Shown in pieces: positions 25,512-31,591 of a stretch of DNA of 64,000 bases (the first letter of the stretch is position 1; every line of letters starts with the position of its first letter). Under the pieces are notes generated by a model. It made no database searches and had not been told where the DNA came from. It saw only the letters and a program-made list of their open reading frames with translations. Location of the stretch: assembly GCA_017548985.1 (NCBI GenBank), contig JAFYYW010000039.1, positions 1 to 64,000 of the forward strand, given 5' to 3'. The DNA comes from Bacteroidales bacterium. GTDB taxonomy: Bacteria; Bacteroidota; Bacteroidia; Bacteroidales; UBA932. The position numbers and the translations under genes are program-made.

Positions 25512-26960
25512 TTAAAGCGAGTCGCCGAAATCTTTGCGGAACTTCTTCGCCAGCTCTTCCTGCCAGTAGCCGATCTCCTTCATCCTACCGAAGAAGAAAC
25601 GGAGCACTTTAGGCTCGGAGACCCACTCAAGGCCACCGATAATCTTGCGGTTGTCCCAGAGCCACTTGACCCTGTCGGCGCAATACTTCACCTGCGAGAG
25701 GGTGAACACCCTTCTTGGCAAGGCCAGACGCAGGAGCTCAAGTTCGGCATACCGCTCTGAGCCATCCGGATTCCTTTGCTCGCTGACAGTACCACGCTCC
25801 ATCCCCCTGATACCTCCGGCTATGAAGAGAGCCGCTCCGACTGCAGCCGCGGGATATTGGTTATGAGGAATATCCGGGACAATCTCGGAACAGTTGAGGT
25901 GGGCACCCAAACCACCTGCGGGCTTGATTACCGGCACACCATAGTCATCGAGTTCCTTGACCAGGTAGGCGATGAACTCAGGGCCCTGGCTGATATACTC
26001 CATGTCGAGGGACTCGATAAGTCCGACGGCCATTGCCTCCATGGAACGGACTTCCATTCCACCATAGGTAAGGAATCCCTCGTAGAGAGGCACGAATTCC
26101 ATCATCTCATCACAGTATTTCTTGTCATGAGAAGTAATAATGCCACCACGAGAGAATCCCAACTTGCGGGCGGAGAAGTAGATGATATCGAAACGATCCG
26201 CAAGAATATGGTATATCTCCTTAGTGGTCATATACTTGCATCTGGGCTCGCGCATCTTCATGAAATACACGTTATCCTGCAGGAGAGATGCGTCAAGGAC
26301 ACTCCTCACACCGAACTCGTGGCAGATGTCAGTCACAGCCAGCATATTCTCAAGGGAGACAGGCTGTCCGCCGATCAGGTTGGTTCCCGCTTCCACGCGG
26401 ACGAACGCGACTTTCTCCGGACCGAGGTCCTTGATGGTCTTCCGCAAAGCCTTAAGATCGAAATTACCCTTGAACGGATCGTCAGACTGAGGAATAAGTC
26501 CCTTCTTGTCAACTAGTTCTATAACTTCTCCACCAACACGGGTGATATGGGCTTTGGTGGTTGTGAAGTGGAAATTCATCAGGGTGTACATCCCAGGTTT
26601 GACATATGCCTCGGCCAGGATATTCTCCGCGGCCCTGCCCTGGTGAGCGGGTAGGACATTATCCGTACCGAAGACCTCCTTGACAGCGGCCTTGACACGG
26701 TTGAAAGTCTCTGATCCGGCGTAGGAGTCATCCGCGATCGACATTGAGGCAATCTGGCGGTCAGACATGCCGTTGACTCCTGAATCAGTGATCATGTCAA
26801 GGTAAATGTCCTTATTCTGAAGGAGGAATGTATTGTTACCCGCATCCTGGATGCATTTCAAACGCTCCTCGACAGGAAGAAGGAAAAGTTTCTGCACTAC
26901 ACGAACCTTGTGCATCTCAAGCGGCACCTGGTTCTCGCTCTGGTAAAATTTTACTGGCAT
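25512..26960 (-). CDS. tnaA: Tryptophanase (beta-eliminating lyase)
   Basis: 482 residues from ATG 26960; the frame extends upstream but only to within the preceding gene. PLP-fold residues are visible: AHQGRAAENIL (phosphate-binding loop), HFTTTKAHI, RVEAGTNLIGGQPVSLEN, VLDASLLQDN (Asp for the pyridine nitrogen), and FSARKLGFSRGG with the PLP Lys. The C-terminal VFTLSQVKYCADRV matches the tryptophanase/tyrosine phenol-lyase family; of the two, tryptophanase is more usual in gut Bacteroidales. The reaction is tryptophan to indole, pyruvate and ammonia. It is last in an operon with DUF4301 and the Na/Pi-transporter fusion. No TnaC-like leader peptide was seen in the 31-base spacer. Confidence 0.88.
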   Translation of the reverse strand: MPVKFYQSENQVPLEMHKVRVVQKLFLLPVEERLKCIQDAGNNTFLLQNKDIYLDMITDSGVNGMSDRQIASMSIADDSYAGSETFNRVKAAVKEVFGTDNVLPAHQGRAAENILAEAYVKPGMYTLMNFHFTTTKAHITRVGGEVIELVDKKGLIPQSDDPFKGNFDLKALRKTIKDLGPEKVAFVRVEAGTNLIGGQPVSLENMLAVTDICHEFGVRSVLDASLLQDNVYFMKMREPRCKYMTTKEIYHILADRFDIIYFSARKLGFSRGGIITSHDKKYCDEMMEFVPLYEGFLTYGGMEVRSMEAMAVGLIESLDMEYISQGPEFIAYLVKELDDYGVPVIKPAGGLGAHLNCSEIVPDIPHNQYPAAAVGAALFIAGGIRGMERGTVSEQRNPDGSERYAELELLRLALPRRVFTLSQVKYCADRVKWLWDNRKIIGGLEWVSEPKVLRFFFGRMKEIGYWQEELAKKFRKDFGDSL

Positions 26961-26991
26961 AAACGTTTGTATTATGAAATCGTATTTATCC

Positions 26992-28482
26992 TCAAGCTTG
27001 ATGCGCCGGACGCAGCAGGTCAAGTACAACTTTCACTGGATTGAAAGTCTCAAGCGGTACCTCCACGAAGACAGTGTTCCAATCACTCATGGCCCCGTTC
27101 CAAAGGCCCGGGAGCTCCAACGCTTTCAACTCCCTACCCTGATAACTCTTAGAGCTGATGAAACCGGCGTCCTGATCGACATGGGAAGGCAGATCGAACT
27201 TCTCCCCGCGATAGTTCTTCAGTATGCACACCAGATCGACCGGGTTGAAATGGGTTGCCCTGGCCATGGCGCCCGCGGCGGCGGGATCATCCTTGTTGAT
27301 CTGGACACTCTCCAAGATCTGGAGGGAAGTGCTTCCGTCAGGACCTTCCACAATATAGGGACCGCCACCAGGCTCTCCCTCATTGCGGACCATTCCGCAT
27401 GCCCTGATCGGACGATCCAACTTGGAACGGAGCAGTTTCACCTCAGCCTTAAGATCACTTGTCTCAGGCAACACCACGCAAAGCTCGCTGTCTAGGAAAG
27501 CCCTGATCTCTGCACAAAGCCCAGCGTCAGGAGCATCATCGAGTTTCTTAAGGTAATTGAATATCTTGTCTCTCAACCTCAAGGCCTCACCCATCAGCAC
27601 CTGTTTGTACAACGAGGTGGTACCCAGCAACTTCTCATGGGCGACATTGTCGATATTCTTGATTGATACCAGCTCGGCGTCCACCTTGTCGAGATTGTGG
27701 ATCAGCGCCCCATGCCCGGCAGGACGGAACAACAGTTCCCCATCAGAGGTCCTGAAGGGCTCATTGGCCATGTCGACAGCGACCGTGTCAGTAGCCTTGT
27801 CCTGGTATGTGAAAGTGATGTCATAATGGACTCCATAGCGCTCCTCATACTCAGGAAGCACCTCAGAGACGGCTTTCTCGAATAACTCCCTGTGCTCAGG
27901 GGAGATAGTCACCACAAGCTTGCATACCCCGTCTTGACCACGCATATACTCCTGAGCCTCGACAAGATGCTCGGCTATGGCGGTACGGATCTCGGAAGCG
28001 TAACGATGGAATTTCAAAACACCCTTAGGCTTCGACCCGTATGCAAGCCCGTCCTCTCCCAGAAGCTTATTCAGGGCGTCCAACCTGTAAGAGGCCGTAT
28101 CCTCAGGCTCGCCAAACAACGCGGCGTCATAAAAAGCGAAGTCCTTGATCCTGGCGGCAAGTTTCGCTCCGGGAGCGTCAGAGGGCAGGTCCTCACCCGC
28201 CTTTAATGTGGCGAGTCCGGAGAACATATCCTTAAACATTCTCGAGGCCGCTCCTGAAGCCGGGACAAACTTGCATTTCCCGTCGACGCTGGAACCGTTA
28301 TAATACTCGACCGCGGCCTTCGCCTCATTCCCGGACATAACCTTGATGCCTCGTCCCGGGGTCGCCGGGGCCACTATTCTCATCCAAGGAAAACCTTTCT
28401 TGAAACGCTCCACCTGTGCCTCGACCTGACAGAGGTCAACGCCACGCCCTTTTATCTGGGCGATATCTTCTTTTGTGAACAT
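26992..28482 (-). CDS. DUF4301 family protein
   Basis: 496 residues, cytoplasmic. The segment CKFVPASGAASRMFKDMFSG resembles a nucleotidyltransferase phosphate-binding loop (G-x-x-SRM), and LLFRPAGHGALIHNLDKVDAELVSIKNIDNVAH recalls UDP-sugar pyrophosphorylase sequences. The family (DUF4301) is confined to Bacteroidota and has no demonstrated function; a sugar-nucleotidyltransferase-like role is inference from those two motifs. It lies between the Na/Pi fusion (17 bases upstream) and tryptophanase (31 bases downstream), so the three are probably co-transcribed. Confidence 0.85.
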   Translation of the reverse strand: MFTKEDIAQIKGRGVDLCQVEAQVERFKKGFPWMRIVAPATPGRGIKVMSGNEAKAAVEYYNGSSVDGKCKFVPASGAASRMFKDMFSGLATLKAGEDLPSDAPGAKLAARIKDFAFYDAALFGEPEDTASYRLDALNKLLGEDGLAYGSKPKGVLKFHRYASEIRTAIAEHLVEAQEYMRGQDGVCKLVVTISPEHRELFEKAVSEVLPEYEERYGVHYDITFTYQDKATDTVAVDMANEPFRTSDGELLFRPAGHGALIHNLDKVDAELVSIKNIDNVAHEKLLGTTSLYKQVLMGEALRLRDKIFNYLKKLDDAPDAGLCAEIRAFLDSELCVVLPETSDLKAEVKLLRSKLDRPIRACGMVRNEGEPGGGPYIVEGPDGSTSLQILESVQINKDDPAAAGAMARATHFNPVDLVCILKNYRGEKFDLPSHVDQDAGFISSKSYQGRELKALELPGLWNGAMSDWNTVFVEVPLETFNPVKVVLDLLRPAHQA

Positions 28483-28499: not shown

Positions 28500-30455
28500 T
28501 TATTCGAAATAATACCCGAAACCAGGCTTGCTCATAATACGGTTGGACAGGTCGCCTAGTTTGGAGCGGATCTCACGGATGCTCAAATCCACGATCTTGG
28601 AGCTGACTGCCGTATCCTTGGGCCACACAGAATCCATGAGCTCCTCACGGGTGAATACCCTGCCAGGATTGGAAACCAGGAGGCTGAGAAGCTCGAACTC
28701 CGCTTTCGACAAATCAAGAGGCTCGCCGTACAACTGGACGGACTTGCGCTTGTGATCGATCACAAGGGCGTCCAGGTTCAGCAAGTCAGCGTCTTCCCTT
28801 TTACCCATCTTCGCCTCGACCGCGTTGATCACGTAGTCGCCGCACTTCTCGCATTCACGGACAATGTCCACGAAAATAGTACCCAAAGCGAAGGAATACT
28901 TACCGGCATCCACATCCAATGTGTTCTGGGAGCGCAATTTGTCACGCAACTCATCGATATCATTCTCAAGAGCCCAAGAGTCATCAGGATCTCCCTCACC
29001 TTCAAGCACTTTGATCATATTGGCAAAGGCCTGGTCCAGAAGATTGAACATGGCGGCGATACCTTCCTCCTGTACCGGGAGGAACTGCTCTTTCTCCTTA
29101 TGGCGACGCTCAATCATCCTGGAGAGGTTCAAGCAGCTGTCGCCTATACTTTCAAGCTCGCTGACAGCGCGGAGCATGGCGCGGATCTTACGTTTGGTCT
29201 CATCAGACAGATGAGAGTTAGAGACTTGGGCCAGATAACTTCCGATCTCGCTCTCGAGACGGTCTGACATCTGTTCCATCTCACGCACCCTGGCGATCTT
29301 CTTCTCGAACGCTGACTCATCTGTCTCAGCGTACAATTCCCGGACAAGAGAGAACATCTGGCGCATCCTGTCGGCGAAGAGGGTGGTCTCCTTCTGCGCC
29401 TGGAGGACAGAGATTTCCGGAGTCTTCATGATACCGGTCTGGATGTACTGGAGACGGAACTCCTCGTCGGTGGACTTCTGAGGGATGAGGTAGGACACCA
29501 ATTTCTCAAGTTGCGGGATGAACCATATCAGGATAGCGGTGTTGGTCACATTGAACATAGTGTGGAAGGTGGCCAGCACGAAAGATAGCCTAGCAGGACT
29601 CTGTGAGTCGGCATGGGGGTCAACTCCGACAATCGAACAGGCGGCGTTGACGAAGGGATAGAACAGGCACAGCACCCACAACACTCCAAACACGTTGAAC
29701 AGCAGATGCGCCAAAGCCGCGCGACGCGCCTGCGTGTTGGCCGAGAGAGCTGCCACATTGGCGGTCACGGTCGTTCCGATATTCTCACCCATGACAAGGG
29801 CGATTCCCTGATATATTGTGAGGACCCCGCTGGTGCAGAGAACCATGGTGATGGCCATGAGGGCGGCCGAGGACTGAGCTATGACAGTCAGGACACCACC
29901 GACCAGGAGGAACAGGAGTATAGTCAGATAGCTTCCGGAATCGAAGGAGGAGAAAAAGTTCACAACTCCCTCATTGTGCGCCAGATCCATCTCACGGCCT
30001 GTCATATTCAAAGTGCCGAGGGCGAAGAACATGAAGGAGAGACCGAAAAGGAAATCACCAAGATAACGGTGCTTCCTGTTCTGGATGAGGATGACAGCCA
30101 CAAGGAAAACCGGCCAGACAAGATTCGCGATATTGAAGGAGAATCCGGCCGACATGATCCACGCCGAGAGGGTGGTACCAATGTTCGCGCCCATGATCAC
30201 CGAAATGGCCTGCGAGAGCGACAGGAGCGCGGCGTTGACAAAGGAGACTGTCATCACCGTCGTCGCGGCTGAAGACTGGACAGCGACGCATACGAGCATT
30301 CCGGTGAGAACTCCGGTGAAACGGTTGGTAGTCATCGCCCCGAGGATGTGTCGCAGGCCGGGGCCGGCCATCTTCTGCAGGGCCTCGCTCATCACCTTCA
30401 TTCCGTACATCAGGAGGGCGATCGAGCCGAGCAGCTTGAAAATTGTGAGAATCAT
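28500..30455 (-). CDS. Na/Pi cotransporter-PhoU protein fused to an OmpR-type winged-helix DNA-binding domain
   Basis: 651 residues in one uninterrupted frame. Residues about 1-320 are a Na/Pi cotransporter: eight or so membrane helices with the duplicated QSSAATT and QSSAALMA motifs and the matching GANIGTT and GENIGTT loops. About 365-545 is a PhoU-type helical domain (MEQMSDRLESEIGSYL, SELESIGDSCLNLSRM, ECEKCGDYVINAV). Residues 561-651 are a complete Trans_Reg_C winged helix: PLDLSKAEFELLSLLVSN, PGRVFTREELMDSVW, SKIVDLSIREIRSKLG (recognition helix) and the wing KPGFGYYFE. Family knowledge: the first two parts form a usual sodium-phosphate symporter. The DNA-binding part is not a normal component and would sit in the cytoplasm. 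It heads an operon with DUF4301 and tnaA. Confidence 0.93.
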   Translation of the reverse strand: MILTIFKLLGSIALLMYGMKVMSEALQKMAGPGLRHILGAMTTNRFTGVLTGMLVCVAVQSSAATTVMTVSFVNAALLSLSQAISVIMGANIGTTLSAWIMSAGFSFNIANLVWPVFLVAVILIQNRKHRYLGDFLFGLSFMFFALGTLNMTGREMDLAHNEGVVNFFSSFDSGSYLTILLFLLVGGVLTVIAQSSAALMAITMVLCTSGVLTIYQGIALVMGENIGTTVTANVAALSANTQARRAALAHLLFNVFGVLWVLCLFYPFVNAACSIVGVDPHADSQSPARLSFVLATFHTMFNVTNTAILIWFIPQLEKLVSYLIPQKSTDEEFRLQYIQTGIMKTPEISVLQAQKETTLFADRMRQMFSLVRELYAETDESAFEKKIARVREMEQMSDRLESEIGSYLAQVSNSHLSDETKRKIRAMLRAVSELESIGDSCLNLSRMIERRHKEKEQFLPVQEEGIAAMFNLLDQAFANMIKVLEGEGDPDDSWALENDIDELRDKLRSQNTLDVDAGKYSFALGTIFVDIVRECEKCGDYVINAVEAKMGKREDADLLNLDALVIDHKRKSVQLYGEPLDLSKAEFELLSLLVSNPGRVFTREELMDSVWPKDTAVSSKIVDLSIREIRSKLGDLSNRIMSKPGFGYYFE

Positions 30456-30459
30456 ATCG

Positions 30460-30467
30460 CGAATTTA
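30460..30467 (-). promoter_or_regulatory. -7 element of the Na/Pi fusion-DUF4301-tnaA operon
   Basis: TAAATTCG on the minus strand, five bases before the ATG at 30455. A TTTC lies 19 bases upstream. An inverted repeat TTTCCC/GGGAAA sits between the two elements and could be an operator. Confidence 0.45.
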
Positions 30468-30502: not shown

Positions 30503-31591
30503 TTATTTATCAACTTTTTTCTCCCCATAAACGCACCACCGGAAAACGGGAATCCGCCTGAGTATCTCATACAGGACCGGAGTGAGCAAGAACACGGACG
30601 CGGCCAGTATGAGATACATGACCACAGGTGGCAAATCCGTATATACCTTCATCATATAACCCAGCGACGCGATGAAGAGATAGTGGGTGACATAGAGGCC
30701 ATAACTGGACCTGGTCATGTAGGCTGACACCGGCCCGGTACGGTCGAAACGGGCCTTGAACCACCCCATCAACGCGAGGCACATCAGCCAGCCATAAAGG
30801 CAATTGAGGGGTGTACATAGGTACTGGGGAGTCGTGTTATCCTGTCCGAAAGTGGTGATAATGAGGACTATACCGGAAATGGCAGCACATGACAGCAATG
30901 GAATCCAGGCTCCTGCCAGACGGCTTTGCACCTTATCATGAGCGAAGACATAATACCCCATCAAGAATACGACCAGATAAAACAATGGTTTGTAGAGATT
31001 CAACAGGCCGGTCTCTGGACGAGGATTACGGATTAGAGTTTGCATCCCCAGCCAAAACAGAATTCCAAGCAAGATGATTGGGAGTATTCCAAGCCGTGAA
31101 CACTTTCCCTCCTTGTCCAGGTCCCGTATGGGCAGGAGCGCGAGGGAGAAAATCCACAGGTCTTGGACGAACCATAGCACTCCGATGCCACTGATAGCCC
31201 AAATCACATATTTGACCGGGCCAGGCAGACCAGCCGTAATGTCAACGCCATTGACAAAAGCGGTCGTCCGGATGTTGAAATAGCCAGTCATCCATTGGAA
31301 AACCAACAAACCGATAGTGGAGGGCACGAGTAGTTTAAGTGTACGGCTCTTTATGAATTCCTTAGGCGCGCGCCGCTCCAGCGAATAACGGGCACTAATT
31401 CCGGCGAGAATAAAAAGAAGTGGCATGAACCAGGGGTAAAGCACATACATGACCAAATCCTGGTACTGCGGGCCGCCGAAACCTCCGATGCCGCCTATGA
31501 CTCCTTTGCCATTGTAGTAGTAAAAAACATGGTACAGCAGTACCAGGAGCACGGTTACCCAGCGCAGGTTGTCAATCCAGTGCCTTCTCAT
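30503..31591 (-). CDS. Acyltransferase 3 family membrane protein
   Basis: 362 residues, about ten membrane helices. The start RRHWIDNLRWVTVLLVLLYHVFYYYNG has the conserved His of acyltransferase family 3, and FILAGISARYSLERR carries the conserved Arg. Members transfer acyl groups (acetyl, succinyl) to extracytoplasmic sugars, O-antigen, peptidoglycan or antibiotics; the target cannot be deduced. The ATG overlaps the TGA of the upstream AbrB-type gene as ATGA, so translation is coupled. Downstream is the Na/Pi fusion promoter region. Confidence 0.88.
   Translation of the reverse strand: MRRHWIDNLRWVTVLLVLLYHVFYYYNGKGVIGGIGGFGGPQYQDLVMYVLYPWFMPLLFILAGISARYSLERRAPKEFIKSRTLKLLVPSTIGLLVFQWMTGYFNIRTTAFVNGVDITAGLPGPVKYVIWAISGIGVLWFVQDLWIFSLALLPIRDLDKEGKCSRLGILPIILLGILFWLGMQTLIRNPRPETGLLNLYKPLFYLVVFLMGYYVFAHDKVQSRLAGAWIPLLSCAAISGIVLIITTFGQDNTTPQYLCTPLNCLYGWLMCLALMGWFKARFDRTGPVSAYMTRSSYGLYVTHYLFIASLGYMMKVYTDLPPVVMYLILAASVFLLTPVLYEILRRIPVFRWCVYGEKKVDK

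Follow-up and report, generated by a model that had tools for sequence, protein, structure and literature searches.

A Bacteroidales phosphate transporter has probably absorbed the output part of the Pho two-component machinery, and would both sense phosphate and control its own gene. The transporter is encoded in the stretch of 64,000 nucleotides that was analyzed here (the window). Going by the sequences, its membrane part, a PhoU domain and a PhoB-type DNA-binding domain form a single polypeptide that is under selection.

The gene (28500-30455, minus strand; Table 1) is a single uninterrupted ORF of 651 codons that starts with ATG. In Pfam, the 651-aa protein shows two stretches of Na_Pi_cotrans (PF02690, E 1.2e-51), PhoU (PF01895) at residues 361-446 (E 2.2e-11) and Trans_reg_C at residues 577-650 (E 1.6e-21, 76.6 bits with a cut-off of 26.2), and all of these matches exceed the curated Pfam cut-offs. 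In addition, TIGR00704 (Na/Pi cotransporter II-related) is matched with 219.6 bits (cut-off 210.1), TIGR02135 spans residues 364-546, and the top curated profile for the C-terminus is the Bacteroidetes PhoB model NF053854 (residues 550-651). The ORF and the Pfam/NCBIfam matches thus bear out the original prediction of a continuous 651-residue frame with a Na/Pi core, PhoU and a winged helix. The duplicated QSSA motifs that had been named with it are found at residues 60 and 194. The transporter repeats carry QSS motifs, and membrane segments and DNA-binding domain lie in a single polypeptide. Receiver domains with a phospho-acceptor Asp were searched for in the fused protein with Pfam, and PF00072 gave zero matches. 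Judged by its domains, the protein would resemble the output half of PhoB in its working, yet is not a response regulator.

An AlphaFold2 model was built from 46 relatives (mean pLDDT 82.2). In it, a helical transporter is followed by a PhoU domain, by a linker of low confidence (residues 553-560) and by a winged helix, whose elements succeed each other at residues 564-650 in the usual strand-helix-wing order. The best solved structures for the winged helix in Foldseek are 1gxq and 1gxp, the effector domain of PhoB by itself and in complex with pho-box DNA (prob 1.00), and VIA-align superposes the two domains over 92 residues with Z 14.9 and rmsd 1.7. The fold that had been proposed for this part is therefore present in the model and is closest to the PhoB effector domain. 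Residues 343-560 match solved PhoU structures with a VIA-align Z of about 23. The PhoU and winged-helix parts took up the structure-search list, and the likeness of the transporter core rests on sequence, which is similar to that of solved SLC34 structures (E 4e-16).

Table 1. Features of the fused gene and its surroundings in the window.
Feature	Position	Strand	Basis and remarks
Tryptophanase-family (beta-eliminating lyase) gene	25512..26975	-	Profiles; neighbour only
DUF4301 gene, downstream, 17 bp gap	26992..28482	-	ORF and profile; neighbour only
Fused gene, Na/Pi cotransporter - PhoU - OmpR/PhoB winged helix, 651 aa	28500..30455	-	ORF, profile matches, AlphaFold2 model
Winged-helix DNA-binding domain, PhoB type, residues 561-651, without receiver domain	28503..28775	-	Profiles, fold, dN/dS
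Recognition helix, residues 619-633; base-contact positions I621, L624, E628 (PhoB T194, V197, R201)	28557..28601	-	Alignment; contacts from PMC3264566
Linker, residues 553-560, predicted flexible	28776..28799	-	AlphaFold2 model, pLDDT about 40
PhoU domain, residues 341-552	28800..29435	-	Profiles; resembles solved PhoU structures in fold, Z 23
Transporter core in the membrane, residues 1-330, with two Na_Pi_cotrans repeats and QSSA motifs (60 and 194)	29466..30455	-	Profiles, SLC34 similarity
Acyltransferase_3 gene, upstream	30503..31591	-	ORF and profile; missing from this place in most relatives
Conserved promoter element GTTGATAAAT	30505..30514	-	59 bp upstream of the start codon; invariant core in relatives

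The fusion is not confined to the window. Among 84,980 species genomes that were scanned, 27 further fused loci were found, one of them cut by a contig end, mostly in Bacteroidales assemblies from the rumen or other ruminant stomachs. Within the window's genus the full-length fusion, judged by open-frame length, is present in 23 of 151 genomes, with another one cut by a contig end, and five of the fusion genomes in this set carry two fusions apiece. Outside the genus, none was detected at E 1e-60 among 395 sampled genomes of the phylum, a thin sample in which fusions of other origin would escape. Altogether, 47 distinct fused proteins, all in frame, were gathered from rumen and omasum Bacteroidales genomes. 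Over 23 pairs the dN/dS of the winged helix was 0.02-0.28, and the domain is therefore under purifying selection; for the window protein and its nearest relatives the value was 0.11-0.12. Relatives without the winged helix terminate 5-25 residues past PhoU, and no winged-helix remnant was found in the 1.5 kb after their transporter genes. A conserved stop codon between PhoU and winged helix, which the original prediction had named as a possible sign of an error, therefore does not occur in these relatives. At one locus (L025/L128, UBA1237 contig) the fusion gene is split into several frames at the end of a short contig, and is either a pseudogene or a low-coverage assembly error.

Absence results for the window's genome rest on a metagenome-assembled genome that is 97.4% complete. 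There, the fused head is the sole Trans_reg_C domain; a complete PhoB, a PhoR above the cut-off, PstB at the threshold used and Pit were all not found. PhoR-like matches stayed far below the cut-off, and two of them are embedded in long open frames (1320 and 1174 codons). Because these components are missing from the genome, one protein may fill the roles of both phosphate transporter and phosphate regulator. Another OmpR-type regulator is scarcer in fusion genomes (5/24 versus 57/127, p 0.04 by a statistic that ignores relatedness). PstB exceeded the cut-off in 5 of 151 genomes. True Pst transporters are uncommon across the genus, and most of its members seem to depend on Na/Pi cotransporters.

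In five relatives (L051, L054, L090, L093 and L113) a transporter gene is followed by a response regulator and then a histidine kinase, all as separate genes. The gap between transporter and regulator is 18-33 bp in four of these operons, and the frames overlap in the fifth. All four operon regulators scanned with Pfam have a receiver and a winged helix, and both of those scanned with NCBIfam exceed the Bacteroidetes PhoB cut-off of 270 bits (334 and 311 bits). The operon kinases are short (about 270-310 aa). In the single one that was scanned, the match to the PhoR model (583 positions) is confined to positions 353-583, and a sensor part of its own is lacking. These operons suggest that the Na/Pi-PhoU transporter replaces the PhoR sensor even before fusion. 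Since the five relatives keep transporter, phoB and truncated phoR apart, the fusion looks like a two-component system that has collapsed into the transporter. In six other genomes of the genus (L170-L175), phoB-phoR lies divergently beside a second, more distant Na/Pi-PhoU transporter gene.

In a tree of winged helices the fused heads cluster with the PhoB-type heads of the operons and divergent loci (100*), apart from a second PhoB group. Forcing the fused heads into one clade made the tree no worse (AU p 0.69), which is compatible with one origin of the fused winged helices. The transporter tree shows two fusion clades with unfused members interspersed, and therefore a single origin with repeated loss and a few origins are both possible. 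As the order of events we favour a start from PhoR-PhoB with a full sensor, followed by an operon of transporter, phoB and short phoR in which the PhoU domain of the transporter could assume sensing. The PhoB head would then have been joined to PhoU, and receiver and kinase lost.

A tandem repeat, GTTAAAA-N4-GTTACAA, with a period of 11 bp was read in the promoters of fusion genes (general form GTTAMAA-N4-GTTAMAA). Such a period is typical of PhoB-family sites. The box was scanned for with simple weights that were set after viewing the fusion promoters of clade B and some of clade A. Therefore the phoB, pstS and divergent loci provide the cleaner, independent evidence. Of 46 fusion genes, 12 have the box at -65 to -80. 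Further copies lie between the two genes in four of the five divergent phoB/transporter pairs of the L170-L175 set, in two of the five transporter-phoB-phoR operons and upstream of several phoB genes. The box also occurs, with varying strength, upstream of pstS in the five genomes with true pst operons. Unfused transporters have it in 3/55 cases, even at the lower score of 9. As the box is found before phoB and pstS and in only 4/734 background upstream regions, it was taken to be the local PHO box.

The exact box occurs genome-wide almost only at the fusion promoter. When up to one mismatch was allowed in 14 fusion genomes, the matches again fell mainly on the fusion promoter, and scattered one-mismatch matches were about as frequent as with the reversed control. 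This speaks against a broad regulon and points to autoregulation: the fusion probably controls its own gene through the predicted box. One genome (L190, 1501-1518; G028:C55:25619) has a second exact PHO box, some 2.9 kb upstream of its fusion gene. Palindromic repeats come after this copy, but no clear gene, and it is perhaps a duplicated piece of promoter.

In PhoB, the bases are contacted by T194, V197, R201 and R219 and the backbone by R203 and T217 (PMC3264566). In the window protein the positions of PhoB R193, T194, V197 and R201 hold K, I, L and E, respectively. Because base-contact residues are replaced, binding to the PHO box cannot simply be assumed for this member. The backbone-contact residue R630 (PhoB R203) is kept, and so is K632. 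Throughout the 47 fusions, R193, V197, R201 and R203 are all retained in 16; the R201 position is E or D in the window's sublineage, and the R203 position is nearly fixed in clade A, to which the window belongs. Base-reading positions are conserved in response regulators. In clade A fusions they belong to the most variable positions of the domain (mean difference 0.78 versus 0.36, permutation p 0.006), and the helix shows a dN/dS of 0.37 versus 0.11 for the remaining domain. The box accompanies a canonical helix in 12 of 17 fusions and an altered helix in none of 28 (Fisher 2e-7); on the tree, this association comes down to about 2.6 informative independent pairs, none of them contrary (p 0.25). 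Many fusions have neither a canonical helix nor a recognised box.

Instead of a clear tandem 7-bp repeat with a 4-bp spacer, the promoter of the window's gene carries the variant GTTGATAAA and a degenerate second half-site. GTTGATAAA is invariant in nine of ten genes of the window's sublineage, 58-60 bp before the start codon, with flanks that are mostly 20-45% identical. In three relatives from the same sublineage, GATAAAT-N4-GATAAAA occupies -67/-56, the same place as the canonical box. In the window, the conserved element at 30505-30514 shares bases with the stop codon that ends the acyltransferase gene upstream, and the form in which relatives conserve it, TGTTGATAA, is one mismatch away from a DnaA box. 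Directly before the start codon lies TAAATTCG (30460-30467, minus strand), a TAnnTTTG-like sequence which we take to be a putative Bacteroidetes -7 promoter element.

Helix and promoter together suggest that the site was retargeted in the window sublineage and that helix and GTTGATAAA changed together. A joint change of protein and site is the simplest account, and relaxed specificity is its main rival. According to the latter, the winged helix of the window sublineage would have lost sequence-specific DNA binding and would be retained as a folded structure that caps PhoU or serves in protein-protein contacts. We regard this as unlikely, yet it has to be weighed. It would fit the base-contact positions, which are replaced in the window protein and hypervariable throughout clade A next to conserved core residues, the raised dN/dS of the helix, and relatives within the fusion clades that are without the whole domain. 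However, R630 and K632 are retained, the dN/dS of the helix is still <1, and an invariant promoter element stands in the place of the old box.

Another regulator might bind the promoter element, and the winged helix would then control unrelated genes or none, a reading favoured by the altered-helix fusions of other sublineages, which have no recognised box. This is improbable given that the identical box marks the promoters of phoB, pstS and phoB-linked transporters and that the window's genome is without a further OmpR-type domain. It is similarly improbable that the DNA-binding part is active only once freed from the membrane, by proteolysis in the linker or by an internal start at M550: the linker is predicted to be flexible and M550 stands before the winged helix in the window, but this position is L, K or another residue in many fusions. 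Finally, although the sequences are metagenome assemblies, an artefact of assembly, frameshift or stop read-through that joins two genes is ruled out for practical purposes by 47 distinct in-frame fusions from many assemblies with an identical join, by purifying selection across this join, and by unfused relatives without a winged-helix remnant.

In the preferred reading, the transporter acts as its own regulator. At high phosphate, transport or the loading of PhoU with Pi/metal would keep the winged helix off the DNA. PhoU would relay the transport or phosphate state to the head via the flexible linker. At low phosphate, the flexible linker would allow two heads together to bind the tandem promoter site, roughly at -50 to -67 relative to the start codon, and to switch on the gene of the transporter itself. 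This would take place at the membrane and need no phosphorylation. For the window member, the altered recognition helix would pair with the matching altered site GTTGATAAA. The one ground for activation instead of repression is that the site lies upstream of the putative -7 element, which suggests an activating role. The membrane-bound one-component regulator of the original prediction thus stands as the best reading, with no PhoB or PhoR above the cut-off in the genome and unfused operons in relatives. It differs from that prediction on two points: the target is now predicted to be the promoter of the fusion gene itself, and the base contacts of the window member are replaced. The furthest-reaching version, in which a whole two-component phosphate system collapsed into a multi-pass transporter acting as transcription factor of its own gene, with helix and site changing together lineage by lineage, seems to us evenly poised.

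Parts of this arrangement are known from other systems. ToxR and CadC are single-pass proteins with an N-terminal DNA-binding domain, whereas the membrane part of the fusion is a complete nutrient transporter and its DNA-binding domain is C-terminal. ToxR, CadC and BcrR resemble the fusion in that a single chain holds a sensor, a membrane anchor and a DNA-binding domain (PMC10269533, PMC5430869). The NptA protein of S. aureus has, like the fusion, a transporter core and a PhoU domain, which contributes to the control of PhoPR activity (PMC13170248) and so supports a signalling role for the PhoU domains of such transporters. However, NptA ends after PhoU and works through a separate kinase and response regulator, whereas the fusion adds a PhoB-type DNA-binding domain. 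In CbrA (PMC8871633) a transporter-family membrane domain is likewise tied to a signalling output, but this output is a kinase acting on CbrB and not a DNA-binding domain. PhoB itself (NF053854; E. coli 1gxp) has a winged-helix output like that of the fusion by sequence and predicted fold, and canonical fusions share the PHO-box-like 7+4 tandem site. Unlike PhoB, the fusion is membrane-anchored and without receiver or phosphorylation site, and the base contacts of the window member are altered. In the PstSCAB-PhoU/PhoR-PhoB system, as in the route proposed here, PhoU reads the transport state and passes it to PhoB-type DNA binding, but several proteins and a phosphorelay are used where the fusion is one protein.

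Membrane-bound one-component regulators, transporter-kinase fusions (CbrA) and NptA-PhoU are therefore already known, whereas a transporter bearing the response-regulator head of its own regulon was not found in the open-access literature searched. No description of a Na/Pi-PhoU-winged-helix protein came up there, and passages of a survey of transmembrane transcription regulators (PMC10269533) do not mention one. It has long been asked by what route a phosphate importer reports its transport state to PhoB through PhoU, and the number of proteins involved hampers tests. As the whole chain is here joined covalently and comes with a defined promoter site, the step from PhoU to DNA would become directly testable. 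In addition, the loci form a nearly complete evolutionary series from a two-component system to a one-component regulator, and they offer what is probably a natural example of joint divergence between a regulator and its binding site.

The DUF4301 and tryptophanase genes next to the fusion had been suggested as possible targets. However, their adjacency is kept only in the closest relatives; they were therefore rejected as conserved operon partners, and their role as targets is unsupported. In Bacteroidaceae, Prevotellaceae and Parabacteroides genomes (L117, L118 and L135), Na/Pi-PhoU transporter genes occur as a tandem pair.
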